Assembly (NCBI RefSeq): GCF_013407955.1
Contig: NZ_JACCBU010000001.1
Location: forward strand, 5,890,001 to 5,954,000
Length of the DNA: 64,000 bases
Reading direction: 5' to 3'
Source of the DNA: Microlunatus parietis
GTDB lineage: Bacteria > Actinomycetota > Actinomycetes > Propionibacteriales > Propionibacteriaceae
Below, in pieces: positions 15,729 through 19,754 of this stretch; the stretch's first letter is position 1, and each line of letters starts with the position of its first letter. The position numbers and the translations under genes are program-made. Under the pieces are notes generated by a model, which saw only the letters and a program-made list of their open reading frames with translations, was not told the DNA's origin and ran no database searches.

Positions 15729-15925
15729 CAGCCCTCCTGATCATCGGTGATCTTTACCCAGACACTAAGGGATCGGGCCGAAATCCGCTGGTGACCGACC
15801 GGCACGGGCCGTACGCTGAGCGGGCAGAAAGCTCAATACGGGCGGTCCGGAGGGGACCGAAGGTGATCGGTTATCGCTGAGAACGACCCCGGTCCCACAA
15901 CCTTGTCCCCTCCCCGCCGTTCTGT

Positions 15926-15948
15926 CGGCACAGACGGGCTCTGTGCCG
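15926..15948 (+). other. Strong hairpin just upstream of the Y RNA
   Basis: CGGCACAGA (15926-15934) and TCTGTGCCG (15940-15948) make a perfect 9-bp stem with loop CGGGC. It ends 6 bases before the outer Y RNA helix. It may be the 5' end of a longer transcript, or a separate structural element. Nothing ends on the plus strand just before it, so it is not an obvious terminator. Confidence 0.5.
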
Positions 15949-15954
15949 GTTGAT

Positions 15955-16102
15955 CGGTGGTCCTCAGACCGTAGACAGTCCGTTACCTCAGGGTCCAGAG
16001 GTCGCGGGTTCGAGTCCCGCCGGCGGAACATGGCTTCCGCTGTAGCTCAGTGGCAGAGCGGTGGAATATCCGGGTTGTCGATTCCTTGTCTGAGGGCCAC
16101 CG
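15955..16102 (+). ncRNA. yrlA: Bacterial Y RNA (YrlA type) with tRNA-like domain
   Basis: The region folds as one long hairpin capped by a tRNA-like head. Outer helix: CGGTGGTCCTCAGAC (15955-15969) pairs along 15 bp with 16088-16102, one G-U. Inner helix: GACAGTCCG (15974-15982) with CGGGTTGTC (16071-16079), 9 bp with two G-U; a further TCCA/TGGA contact is at 15994-15997/16062-16065. The head has tRNA parts in permuted order: T-arm GCGGG-TTCGAGT-CCCGC (16004-16020), acceptor strand CGGCGGA (16021-16027), 8-nt loop, acceptor strand TCCGCTG (16036-16042), TA, then D-arm GCTC-AGTGGCA-GAGC (16045-16059). YrlA RNAs are known to bind Rsr by the stem and mimic tRNA with the head. The position 32 bases before rsr fits. 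Transcript ends are not known. Confidence 0.85.
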
Positions 16103-16134
16103 CCGACGTATCGAGGTGCAGGAGGGAGATGATC

Positions 16135-17757
16135 ATGACGTACGGTTCCGATCCGCTGACCCGGATCTCGACCCGGCGGACGCCGCAGTCCCGGCCGGCG
16201 ACGCCGGACCAAGTGCCCAACCACGCCGGTGGACACGTCTTCGAGATCACCCCGGAGCAACGGCTGCGGCGGTTCTTGATCATCGGCACCGACGGCGGCA
16301 CCTACTACCAGGACGAGGCGGAACTGACCCGCGAGAACGCGCAGGTCGTGATCGACTTCGCGGCCGAGGACCCGGTCCGGCTGGTCGAGATCGTTCGCGA
16401 GGTGTCGCTGGCCGGGCGGGCGCCCAAGCAGAACCCGACGATCTTCGCGTTGGCCGTGGCCGCCGCGGCGGACCGGCCGGAGGGTCGGGCGGCCGCGTTC
16501 GCGGCGATGCCTGAAGTGCTGCGTACCGGGACCCACTTGATGCTGTTCGCCAAGTACGTCCAGCAGTTCCGCGGCTGGGGCTCCGGCCTGATGCGGGCCG
16601 GTCGCCGCTGGTACGAGGCAAAGGACATCGACGCGCTGACGTACCAGTTGGTCAAGTACCGCAGCCGGGAGGGCTTCAGCCAGCGCGACCTGCTGCGGCT
16701 GATCCACCCGAAGACCGATGATCAACTACGGAACGCCCTGTACCGCTGGGTGACCCAGGACGAGCTGTCGTACCAGTTGCCCAGGCTGGTGCACGGCTTC
16801 GTCGCCGCCCAGGCCGCCGCGTCCGCCGCGGACTGGGTCCGGTTGATCAAGGATTACGGGTTGTCCTGGGAGATGCTGCCAGACGCCGCGCTGACCGAGC
16901 GCGAGGTCTGGCAGGCCCTGGTCGAGGTCGGTCTGCCGATGACCGCGCTGATCCGGCAGCTGCCCCGGTTGACCCGGCTCGAGGTGATCGGCAACGCGTT
17001 GCGTGACGGCGATCGCACCATCGACGTCGTGGCGCAGCTCACCGATCCGGAGCTGCTGAGCCGGGCCAGGATCCATCCCTTCAACGTGTTGGTCGCCCTG
17101 CGCACCTATGCCGCCGGCCGGTCCTTCCGCGGCTCGTCGACCTGGACCCCCGCCCGGCCGGTGCTGGATGCGCTGGACGCGGCGTTCTACGCGTCGTTCG
17201 GCAACGTGGTGCCGGCGAACCGGCGGACCATGATCGGCTTGGACGTGTCCGGCTCGATGGGTGTCACGATCGCCGGCAGCCCGCTGACCGCGCGGGAGGC
17301 CTCGGCGGCGATGTCCATGATCACCGTCGCCACCGAGCCGAGGACAGCGGTCTACGGGTTCACCGCGGGCGGTGCCGGTTGGCGTTCGGCCGCCCTGACC
17401 GAGCTGGCGATCGGGCCGCGGCAACGGCTGGAGAACGTGATCGACAGCGTGTCCCGGCTGCCGTTCGGCGGCACCGACTGCGCACTGCCGATGATCAAGG
17501 CTCTGGAAGACGGCCTCGAGGTCGACACCTTTATGATCCTGACCGACAACGACACATGGGCTGGGCAGATCCATCCGCACCAGGCACTTCAGGCCTATCG
17601 ACGTGAAACAGACATAGCGGCTCGACTGGTGATCTGGGCAATGACTTCGTCTGGATTCTCGATCGCTGACCCAGCAGATCGAGGGATGATGGACCTCGTT
17701 GGCGTGGACTCGGCGTCTCCTCAGCTGGTGGCAGACTTCTCTCGTGGCGACATCTGA
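16135..17757 (+). CDS. rsr: Ro60 orthologue Rsr: TROVE domain plus vWA domain, Y RNA-binding ring protein
   Basis: This is a 540-residue orthologue of the Ro 60-kDa autoantigen. The HEAT-repeat TROVE ring covers about residues 25-330 (ITPEQRLRRFLIIGTDGGTYYQDE; AGRAPKQNPTIFALAVAAA; LMLFAKYVQQFRGWGSGLMRA; YRSREGFSQRDLLRLIHPK). The vWA domain has an intact MIDAS: IGLDVSGSMG (about 367), FGGTDCALPM (about 444) and LTDNDTWAG (about 469). Bacterial Rsr binds Y RNA and works in stress-linked RNA decay and rRNA maturation, for example with PNPase. Start ATG 16135 is set by GGAGGGAG ending 6 bases upstream. After about 17,560 the codon use turns less GC-rich, and the end overlaps the endonuclease gene. 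Confidence 0.95.
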   Translation: MTYGSDPLTRISTRRTPQSRPATPDQVPNHAGGHVFEITPEQRLRRFLIIGTDGGTYYQDEAELTRENAQVVIDFAAEDPVRLVEIVREVSLAGRAPKQNPTIFALAVAAAADRPEGRAAAFAAMPEVLRTGTHLMLFAKYVQQFRGWGSGLMRAGRRWYEAKDIDALTYQLVKYRSREGFSQRDLLRLIHPKTDDQLRNALYRWVTQDELSYQLPRLVHGFVAAQAAASAADWVRLIKDYGLSWEMLPDAALTEREVWQALVEVGLPMTALIRQLPRLTRLEVIGNALRDGDRTIDVVAQLTDPELLSRARIHPFNVLVALRTYAAGRSFRGSSTWTPARPVLDALDAAFYASFGNVVPANRRTMIGLDVSGSMGVTIAGSPLTAREASAAMSMITVATEPRTAVYGFTAGGAGWRSAALTELAIGPRQRLENVIDSVSRLPFGGTDCALPMIKALEDGLEVDTFMILTDNDTWAGQIHPHQALQAYRRETDIAARLVIWAMTSSGFSIADPADRGMMDLVGVDSASPQLVADFSRGDI

Positions 17758-18166
17758 GGAGATTGCCTGGCTTGCAGGCATCTTGGAGGGCGAGGGCAGC
17801 TTCTATCTGCAACGTGATCGCGGGATCTATCTCTACCCGCGCGTGGTTGTGAGCATGACCGACGAGGATGTCATTCAACGCGTGGCAGACCTGTTCGGCG
17901 CCAAGATCTACAAGGTTCCTGTCTCGCCGAGGTACCCAGCCCGAAAGCAACAATGGCGAGCAGTCGCGACGGGCCAGCGGGCGGTCCGGTTGATGAAGGA
18001 GATCCGGCCGTTGATGGGTAAACGGCGTGGTGCGAAGATCGACGAAATCATTGCCTACTGGGAATCACAGCCAGAGCCAAATGCCCTGCGATCTGAGTAC
18101 TCCAAGAGCCAGGCGGCTGGTAAGCGTCGAGACGAAGCTGGCCGGTTCGTGGTCGGAGACGCGTGA
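17744..18166 (+). CDS. Single-motif LAGLIDADG homing endonuclease
   Basis: A protein of about 140 residues with one LAGLIDADG motif, WLAGILEGEGSF at residues 9-20, including the metal-binding acidic residue. The alphabetabeta core follows (YPRVVVSMTDEDVIQRVADLFGAKIYKV ... WRAVATGQRAVRLMKEIRPLMGKRRGAKIDEII). Single-motif enzymes act as homodimers on near-palindromic sites. The GTG start lies 14 bases inside the end of rsr, so the two are likely translated together. The frame is also open back to a TTG at 17699. Base composition is clearly lower in GC than the neighbours, and rare codons are common, which signals transfer. No intron or intein splicing motif was seen, so it would be a free-standing endonuclease. 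Confidence 0.85.
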   Translation: MATSEEIAWLAGILEGEGSFYLQRDRGIYLYPRVVVSMTDEDVIQRVADLFGAKIYKVPVSPRYPARKQQWRAVATGQRAVRLMKEIRPLMGKRRGAKIDEIIAYWESQPEPNALRSEYSKSQAAGKRRDEAGRFVVGDA

Positions 18167-18211
18167 AGAATCTGGTCTGCTGATCACAAGCAGAGTTTGG
18201 TTAGCATGATA

Positions 18212-18224: not shown

Positions 18225-19754
18225 ATGATTTCGGAGGCGATGACGCCGTTGCCGTTCCGGGCACTGCCGTACGACGACGGCGGGGCCGGGCTGCCGTATC
18301 CGAGCAAGATCATCGCGGTGCATCTCAACTTCGAGTCCCGGGCCGCGGAGCGCGGCAGGCGGCCGGAGCAGCCGTCGTACTTCCTCAAGCCGGTGAGCTC
18401 GTTGGCCTCGTCCGGCGGGGTGGTGGAGCGGCCGGCGGGCACCGAACTGCTGGGCTTCGAGGGCGAGATTGCGCTGGTGATCAAGGAGACGACGCGCCGG
18501 GCCACGCCGGAGCAGGCCTGGTCCCGGGTGGCCGGCGTGACGGCTGCAAACGACCTGGGTGTCTACGATCTTCGGTACGCCGACAAGGGTTCCAACCTGC
18601 GGTCCAAGGGCGGTGACGGGTTCACCCCGATCGGCCCGGCGCTGATCCCGGCGGACCGGATCGATCCGGGCCGGCTGCGGCTGCGCACCTGGGTGAACGG
18701 CGAGCCGGTGCAGGAGGACGACACCGGCGCGTTGATCTTCGACTTCGCCCGCCTGGTCGCCGACCTGTCCCAGTTGATCACCCTCGAGGCCGGCGATCTG
18801 ATCTTGACCGGGACGCCGGCCGGCGCTTCGGTGATCATGCCCGGTGATCGGGTCGAGGTCGAGGTGGACGCGCCGAGTGGGCCGACGACCGGACGGTTGC
18901 TCACCACGGTGAGCGCGGGTGAGGTGCCGCTCGCGGGCTACGGGGCCGGCCCGAAGGTGGACGACGCGACCCGGGCCGACGCATGGGGGAATGGTGCGGG
19001 ACGGGCCCAGGCCCTTCGACAGGCTCAGGGCGCGCCGGGGAACGAGGCTCAGGGCGCGGAGGGACCCCTCACGGAGGAGGTCCGGGCTGCGCTGGGCCGG
19101 GTGGGCACTGCGACGCTGAGTTCCCAGCTGCGCAAGCGAGGTCTGGACAACGTCAGCATCGACGGCGTGGTCGCGCTCCGGTCCGGCGAACGGTTGCTCG
19201 GGATCGCGCGGACGCTCCGGATGGTGCCGCTGCGGGAGGATCTGTTCAAGAGTCACGGCGGCGGCTACAACGCGCAGAAGCGGGCCGTGGACACGCTGAA
19301 CCCCGGGGACGTGCTGGTGATAGAGGCCCGCGGCGAGCCGGGCACGGGGACGATCGGTGACATCCTCGCGCTGCGGGCGAAGGTGCGCGGCGCGGCGGGT
19401 GTGGTGACCGACGGCGGGGTTCGTGATCATGATGCGGTCGCCGAGCTCGGCCTGCCGGTCTATTGCGCCGGCGCTCATCCGGCCGTGCTGGGCCGGCGGC
19501 ACGTCCCGTGGGACGTCGACCAGACGATCGCCTGCGGCGGCACCACGGTGCAGCCGGGCGACGTGATCATCGGGGACGCGGACGGTGTGCTGGTCATCCC
19601 GCCCGGTCTGGTCGCGGAGGTCGCGGCCGACGCCGTCGAGCAGGAACGGCAGGAGACCTTCATCGCCGAGCAGGTCGCCGCCGGCGAACCGGTGGACGGG
19701 CTGTATCCGATGAACGAGGCCTGGCGGGAGAAGTACCGGCAGTGGCGACCATGA
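18225..19754 (+). CDS. Fusion of fumarylacetoacetate hydrolase-family domain and RraA-like domain
   Basis: This 509-residue protein has two enzyme domains. The FAH-family half (about 1-245) shows SSGGVVERPAGTELLGFEGEIALVI with the metal-binding Glu pair, AANDLGVYD and LILTGTPAG. The RraA-like half (about 285-505) shows GAAGVVTDGGVRDHDAVAELGLPVY, the active-site region of RraA-type aldolases/decarboxylases. In the homoprotocatechuate pathway HpaG, a fusion of two FAH domains, does OPET decarboxylation and HHDD isomerisation. Here the second FAH half is replaced by RraA, so a similar bifunctional role is inferred. The linker (about 245-285) carries an interspersed palindromic repeat. It begins an operon with ATGA-type overlaps. 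Confidence 0.8.
   Translation: MISEAMTPLPFRALPYDDGGAGLPYPSKIIAVHLNFESRAAERGRRPEQPSYFLKPVSSLASSGGVVERPAGTELLGFEGEIALVIKETTRRATPEQAWSRVAGVTAANDLGVYDLRYADKGSNLRSKGGDGFTPIGPALIPADRIDPGRLRLRTWVNGEPVQEDDTGALIFDFARLVADLSQLITLEAGDLILTGTPAGASVIMPGDRVEVEVDAPSGPTTGRLLTTVSAGEVPLAGYGAGPKVDDATRADAWGNGAGRAQALRQAQGAPGNEAQGAEGPLTEEVRAALGRVGTATLSSQLRKRGLDNVSIDGVVALRSGERLLGIARTLRMVPLREDLFKSHGGGYNAQKRAVDTLNPGDVLVIEARGEPGTGTIGDILALRAKVRGAAGVVTDGGVRDHDAVAELGLPVYCAGAHPAVLGRRHVPWDVDQTIACGGTTVQPGDVIIGDADGVLVIPPGLVAEVAADAVEQERQETFIAEQVAAGEPVDGLYPMNEAWREKYRQWRP
19009..19029. repeat. Interspersed palindromic repeat inside the FAH-RraA linker
   Basis: A 21-bp imperfect palindrome beginning GCCCTTCGACAGG and ending CTCAGGGC. 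A copy with one mismatch lies at 46358-46378 in the opposite orientation. A partial echo (GAGGCTCAGGGCGC) follows at about 19040-19053. This word is a familiar dispersed repeat of high-GC genomes. It is translated here as part of the flexible linker (ALRQAQGA). Confidence 0.7.

Follow-up and report, generated by a model that had tools for sequence, protein, structure and literature searches.

The window analysed here, a stretch of 64,000 nucleotides covering bases 5890001-5954000 of the 7.24-Mb single-contig genome of Microlunatus parietis, is best explained by a Ro60 ribonucleoprotein locus with two Y RNAs in which the 3' end of rsr has been replaced by a homing cassette. It is likely that these two parts hold together, the locus encoding Rsr and two Y RNAs, all in one direction; the cassette part is, on the strength of the sequence, probable. 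The novel element would probably be the cassette, the YrlA part being of a known kind. Sequences, folds, covariation, breakpoints and the occurrence of the same structure in phage are observed directly; transcription, Rsr binding, cutting and transfer are inferred. The main features of the locus are as follows.

15847..15915, + strand: putative second, headless Y RNA, with a Ro-binding-type stem and a small hairpin replacing the tRNA-like head (leave-out covariance model R1, 35.8 bits, E 2.2e-5)
15926..15948, + strand: 9-bp hairpin between the two Y RNAs, a possible processing or termination element (read from the sequence)
15955..16102, + strand: YrlA-type Y RNA with a 15-bp outer helix, a 9-bp inner helix and a tRNA-like head (fold, Rfam, R1, covariation)
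16129..17757, + strand: rsr, Ro60 orthologue of 542 aa (Pfam TROVE 141.5 bits, vWA_Ro60 196.6 bits, PDB 2nvo)
17530..17757, + strand: foreign-looking, recoded 3' end of rsr, codons 468-542, beginning just before the codons TDNDTWAG (breakpoint scan, GC profile)
17744..18166, + strand: LAGLIDADG homing-endonuclease-like gene overlapping the rsr stop (motif, predicted fold, Tribute relative)

Rsr of the window is full length, both Pfam domains exceed their cut-offs, and the protein matches the Rsr of PDB 2nvo with an E of 1.7e-108. Residues D372, S374, S376, T449 and D473, which we take to be those of the MIDAS, are invariant in a seven-sequence alignment, in agreement with the initial annotation, which had described the gene following the RNA as a full Rsr with a TROVE domain and an intact MIDAS. 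The NCBIfam Rsr equivalog model gives 497.9 bits, below its cut-off of 900, and translation perhaps starts at 16135, which is better spaced from an AGGAGG at 16120. Among the best 80 of 152 relatives, the closest rsr is that of Microlunatus speluncae (L005), with 87% protein identity and shared genes flanking rsr. A Ro-like gene of Mycobacterium phage Iota (L193 1498-3158) is annotated as two overlapping ORFs and is possibly split or frameshifted.

The rsr genes of the window and of M. speluncae agree at 78-93% identity per 60-nt bin up to 17508, after which identity drops to 0.73, 0.67, 0.63 and 0.78, with 0.89 over the last 9 nt. A breakpoint scan against M. speluncae, the one relative against which the window break was scored (85% identical before the break), places the change at codon 468 with an lnLR of 18.2, a value reached in none of 300 permutations (maximum 11.3), nucleotide identity being 0.855 before this codon and 0.680 after it. 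Eleven control pairs without the endonuclease gene gave lnLR values of 1.0-7.4, several of them being mildly heterogeneous and none near 18. At the protein level, residues 1-455 are 89% identical to M. speluncae and residues 456-542 74%, the foreign-looking end being closer to M. speluncae than to the Ro protein of Streptomyces phage Tribute (56%). GC content falls from about 70% to 57% at the rsr end and recovers near 18225. Across the break, GC3 falls from 0.92 to 0.61 in the window while it stays high in M. speluncae (0.92 to 0.89), so that the odd rsr end is the window's. Homology between the two genomes resumes only at window position 18210 (L005 5954), M. speluncae having 1.3 kb of other sequence after rsr, and the right-hand junction in the window is for this reason not placeable.

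The low-GC tract of the rsr end runs on into the open reading frame at 17744-18166, which is predicted to encode a LAGLIDADG-type endonuclease. The protein carries the motif as LAGILEGEG and is 46% identical to its relative in Tribute. Its AlphaFold model (pLDDT 90.5, from a 40-row alignment) has 45 matches in the PDB with E <= 0.001, every one either a homing endonuclease or a maturase, at query TM-scores of 0.35-0.60; I-MsoI is the best (E 2.3e-5), and I-DmoI and I-CeuI are among the others. Pfam LAGLIDADG_3 scores 19.8 bits, below its cut-off of 22.5, and the Tribute protein matches PF09062 above cut-off, a relation to intein endonucleases being possible; PHROG 5046 names the family HNH endonuclease, which disagrees with both motif and fold. 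M. speluncae lacks the gene, and among class genomes it was found in the window's own genome only (1 of 246 and 1 of 394). Neither the gene nor the foreign-looking rsr end had been noticed in the initial annotation. Relatives occur in 146 phage records and in four plasmid records, the latter at less than 60% identity. In viral contigs an alignment search yielded 241 relatives, and a single-protein search yielded none. When 190 rsr loci, two of them with less than 300 nt to scan, were searched for a LAGLIDADG motif within 900 nt, five had one: the window, L104 (which is the same place as the window), Tribute, L114 and L116. The association is therefore rare. An intein or group I intron in rsr is unsupported, rsr being one open frame to its stop with the endonuclease gene after it, and the window holding no Rfam match at the gathering threshold. 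Arthrobacter phage Liebe (L112 1992-2387) has a related gene of LAGLIDADG type that overlaps a nucleoside 2-deoxyribosyltransferase gene at its end, and several Arthrobacter phages are annotated in this way; a similar cassette may here sit on a different gene.

The same structure is found in phage. The best phage match of the endonuclease is gene 124 of Tribute (L106), which starts on the last base of the Ro gene 123, and the sister phages Sushi23 and Peebs are without a Tribute-type endonuclease gene; with alleles that have and lack the cassette side by side in sister phages, the cassette is directly testable. The rsr genes of Tribute and Sushi23 agree at 0.95-1.00 per bin up to the bin of the break (0.90) and then at 0.75, 0.73 and 0.68, whereas after the gap left by the endonuclease gene identity returns to 0.95-1.00 (0.88-1.00 with Peebs), and the two sequences align again from the stop codon onwards. 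The break falls at codon 477 with an lnLR of 104.8, identity changing from 0.993 to 0.721. Protein identity is 100% before this codon and 93.2% after it, where only 36% of same-residue codons agree. Codon 477 of Tribute encodes the residue after VDTF and codon 468 of the window the F of VDTF, one alignment column apart.

For three of the best 80 of the 241 viral relatives (L114, L115 and L116), rsr lies directly upstream of the endonuclease gene. L115 has a pair of endonuclease units after rsr and, beyond them, CTGCTGGCCGACCACGCCCGGGGCGACATCTGA, a 33-nt remnant reading LLADHARGDI and a stop. The remnant and the current end of rsr agree at 26 of 33 nt, and the score of 31 for this match is reached by none of 500 shuffles (maximum 29) and by none of 3973 real-sequence windows, for which the maximum is 29, or 23 against the last 33 nt of rsr alone. 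L115 thereby appears, from this sequence match, to keep a displaced scrap of an older rsr end; a displaced rsr end was not found after the endonuclease gene of the window, nor after those of Tribute, L114 and L116.

A mechanism can be proposed in which the product of the endonuclease gene that adjoins the rsr end would cut rsr alleles without that gene, at or near the MIDAS codons. Repair would then bring in from the donor both the rewritten final 75 codons and the endonuclease gene, the outcome being a working, cut-resistant rsr. The pseudo-palindrome expected of a homodimer target ranks third of 600 offsets near the T codon at widths 20, 22 and 24 (z 3.5-4.0, from the 151 usable genes among 166 rsr); at width 21 the lead passes to other centres, and the one at the T codon is not among the best. 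A donor of the window cassette was sought in viral contigs, class genomes and plasmids, and none was found.

Ordinary homologous recombination with foreign rsr DNA, by which the rsr 3' end and the endonuclease gene would have arrived together with the endonuclease playing no part, would leave the same sequence mosaic, and the 340 phage records with rsr homologues offer possible donors; this account is nevertheless unlikely, since the breaks in two rsr genes of distant kinship lie within one codon of each other at one conserved motif, each gene being joined to a member of the same endonuclease family, and L115 carries the displaced rsr scrap.

By analogy, the best reading of the cassette would be a homing cassette that replaces the rsr 3' end in the manner of the yeast WHO elements. 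In Coughlan 2020 (PMC7282813), the WHO elements of Torulaspora and Lachancea yeasts have their endonuclease gene just after the target gene FBA1. They share with the window and Tribute a target 3' end replaced by a diverged copy with the endonuclease gene after it, and with L115 alone a cluster of endonuclease units and what looks there like a displaced old end, but the target here is rsr and not FBA1, the hosts are a bacterium and phages, and the protein is small, with one LAGLIDADG motif and no zinc finger match in Pfam. The cassette structure also fits intronless homing with co-conversion as conducted by the free-standing seg and mob endonucleases of T4-like phages (PMC2988022). The two have in common an endonuclease gene outside introns and near its target, hundreds of bp from the break, with the sequence between co-converted, whereas the T4 enzymes are GIY-YIG or HNH and that of the window is LAGLIDADG, with a break at MIDAS codons common to two distant hosts. 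The balance tips slightly towards a prokaryotic WHO counterpart specialised on the Ro60 gene, which would cut rsr at the codons of the metal-binding motif, move between phage and bacterial rsr, and swap in a rewritten C-terminal coding sequence each time, so that the end of Ro60 would evolve by replacement. If true, the cassette would represent a homing mode for bacteria and phages that needs neither intron nor intein and that rewrites the end of the host gene, and it links phage-borne with chromosomal Ro60 genes. Among the titles and abstract openings listed in literature searches, none names a homing endonuclease at rsr or Ro.

The RNA upstream of rsr at 15955-16102 is made up of the following parts, all on the + strand.

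15955-15969/16088-16102, + strand: outer helix, 15 bp (sequence and fold)
15974-15982/16071-16079, + strand: inner helix, 9 bp by eye and a run of 8 in the MFE structure (sequence and fold)
15994..16065, + strand: tRNA-like head (anticodon-stem pairing, Levitt pair)
15994-15998 and 16061-16065, + strand: anticodon-stem-like arms of the head (pairing in 48 units)
15999-16003, + strand: variable loop of the head
16004-16020, + strand: T-arm with loop TTCGAGT (sequence and fold)
16021-16027/16036-16042, + strand: acceptor, 7 bp with an 8-nt loop (sequence and fold)
16043, + strand: U8 of the head
16045-16059, + strand: D-arm with GG in its loop (sequence and fold)
16050 with 16003, + strand: Levitt pair of G15 with C48 (pair columns in 48 units)

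Sequence and fold bear out the helices, T-arm, acceptor and D-arm described in the initial annotation. At -71.8 kcal/mol, the MFE structure is more stable than any of 200 shuffles, which average -58.2 (z -3.71); it adds one A-U pair to the acceptor, giving 8 bp and a 6-nt loop, and has a competing local hairpin at 15985-16002 at the place of the anticodon-like stem. The best Rfam family for 15955-16102 is YrlA (RF02553) with 39.7 bits and an E of 1.9e-7, below the gathering score of 69, and nowhere else in the 7.24-Mb genome does this model score strongly, the next place reaching 18.6 bits. At the gathering threshold, Rfam finds nothing in the whole window and no YrlA in 19 related loci chosen from 80, each of which has a YrlA-type unit by motif, so that the cut-off seems blind to the window's clade. 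A covariance model built from 45 sequences without the window and M. speluncae (R1) assigns 93.4 bits to the M. speluncae RNA and 87.1 bits (E 6.5e-16) to that of the window. The RNA is therefore YrlA-type, assigned by structure and synteny though it lies below the Rfam cut-off, and the finding extends a known class of which that cut-off missed the window and all 19 related loci tested. Between the best Rfam family, the leave-out model, synteny with rsr and covariation in helices unused for selection, the earlier Ro60/YrlA reading is upheld, the leave-out model being a covariance search of the kind that the initial annotation had suggested. The order of T-arm, acceptor and D-arm, which had been called permuted, is present but not unusual, as it is the normal layout of Rfam YrlA, which places the Y RNA part in a known class, and is seen in 47 aligned relatives that had themselves been selected by T-arm and D-arm.

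Y RNAs are known in bacteria, and Rsr binds their stem in Deinococcus, Salmonella and M. smegmatis (PMC4726728). A review (PMC8394870) describes the tRNA-like domain of YrlA, its modification by DusA and TruB, and a particle with PNPase, and further papers describe a Salmonella rsr-yrlBA-rtcBA operon (PMC7790460) and predict yrlA in some mycobacteria (PMC9569102). Like the YrlA of RF02553 in Salmonella and M. smegmatis, the window RNA has a long stem and a head of T-arm, closed acceptor and D-arm, and it adjoins rsr, as does the YrlA that published work places beside rsr and bound by Rsr; it differs in its score, in having a headless Y RNA beside it, and in its stem motif, which is GAC-CG/TTGTC and not the GGGC-CG/CACGCCC common among relatives. 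Likeness to the Deinococcus RYPER (Rsr/Y RNA/PNPase) extends, in gene content, to an Rsr orthologue, a Y RNA and a PNPase gene, which is present in the window's genome. The outer stems of both Y RNAs would bind Rsr; if the YrlA head acts as in the YrlA RNAs characterised elsewhere, it would offer partner enzymes a surface resembling tRNA.

Covariation was assessed in loci from the best 80 of 152 confirmed rsr relatives, in which 71 YrlA units from 56 sources (window included) were picked by T-stem, D-arm motif and outer stem, eight candidates being dropped. Alignment A1 comprises 48 of these units, the window among them, after 23 were left out by hand as near-duplicates, for doubtful 3' ends or long inserts, or as one apparent tRNA pair. 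Standard pairs occupy 94.9% of its 1755 cells, and changes on both sides occur in 29 of 37 pairs. The alignment has a covariation score of 0.568, as compared with 0.171 (sd 0.008) after shuffling and no more than 0.130 after sliding. Because units were selected by their outer, T and D helices, these are partly ascertained; the acceptor and the inner helix were not used, and double changes affect all seven acceptor pairs and five of eight inner-helix pairs, the inner helix being one of the two in which the initial annotation had suggested looking for compensatory changes. At inner-helix columns 25-139 the window has C-G and 45 sequences have G-C, with only its near relative M. speluncae sharing C-G.

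With the head numbered as a tRNA, positions 27-31/39-43 pair in 188 of 240 cells across the 48 units, as against 114.5 (sd 5.9) shuffled (0 of 1000), the window having four of the five pairs of this anticodon-like stem. At the Levitt pair 15-48, 44 of 48 units have G-C or A-U, versus an expected 24.1 (sd 3.1; 0 of 2000), while 12 other columns tested around it stay at |z| <=2.1, some because they are nearly invariant. U8, A14, G53, U54, U55, C56, R57, A58 and C61 are kept in 48 of 48 units, the T-loop and D-arm letters being partly selected and the statistics ignoring kinship among the units. Support from covariation covers the acceptor, the inner helix, the anticodon-like helix and the Levitt tertiary pair. 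In the YrlA head, a tRNA body is open where the anticodon loop would be and closed at its acceptor end, and the elbow of tRNA is preserved as far as the Levitt pair.

That the rsr locus is a decaying remnant, its Y RNAs no longer made and its Rsr inactive after the end swap, is quite improbable: the lack of an rsr match in all 14 same-genus genomes listed and the departure of the YrlA outer stem from the relatives' common motif would agree with it, but double changes keep the stem pairs, and rsr is open with its MIDAS residues kept. A decayed tandem tRNA pair, in which the T-arm of a first tRNA would precede the D-arm of a second, is hardly credible as the origin of 15955-16102 and was rejected, for although tandem-tRNA junctions resemble the YrlA head (a DNA search matches annotated phage tRNA genes over about 60 nt, and two family genomes with no rsr match, G264 and G291, have head-only R1 matches at model positions 30-108 and 41-104), ARAGORN finds no tRNA in the window, the YrlA score is far above the only match shown from clan CL00001, presumably the tRNA/tmRNA clan, a 12.8-bit tmRNA fragment, the leave-out match covers all 136 model positions with the outer stem included, the acceptor strands covary, and the RNA is syntenic with rsr, an outcome that settles the decayed-tRNA comparison of the initial annotation in favour of YrlA.

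As an element of the Ro60 ribonucleoprotein locus, the stretch at 15847-15915, overlooked in the initial annotation, reads as a minimal Y RNA without a head. The next best place for R1 in the window after the two Y RNAs has 15.4 bits. Among 30 matches to the 5' motif on both strands, only YrlA and 15847-15915 have nine of nine stem pairs; eight other places in the window have 7 or 8, which makes a motif scan with seven pairs alone loose. In M. speluncae, R1 finds the YrlA and not the headless second Y RNA. The hairpin at 15926-15948 has no T run after it and a terminator scan finds none, nor was a sigma-70-type promoter seen at the locus.

Of 80 bacterial rsr loci, 74 have Y RNAs by R1; its 183 matches are all on the rsr strand and include the 45 training units and a few head-only matches at likely tRNAs; the head-only match at L072 1891-1973 looks like a real tRNA pair. 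A further 150 matches are spread over 79 phage or viral rsr sources, 70 of which had been chosen from 80. In the family, full-length R1 matches occur in seven of 57 genomes, all seven belonging to the eight with rsr, and the eighth (G265) has a head-only match alone, on another contig. By the loose motif scan, and in several cases also by R1, many rsr loci hold at least two Y-like units. The motif scan distinguishes three head types: a full tRNA-like head, a T-arm and hairpin without D-arm, and no head at all. Units at L014 2589-2698, L033 2660-2801 and L084 2728-2846 seemingly have a T-arm and hairpin without a D-arm, partial tRNA mimics beside full ones. At L019 2762-2867, in one of the 19 loci without a YrlA match at the gathering threshold, a second Y-like hairpin, although bacterial, reaches the nematode small RNA family RF01656 with 38.9 bits (cut-off 38).
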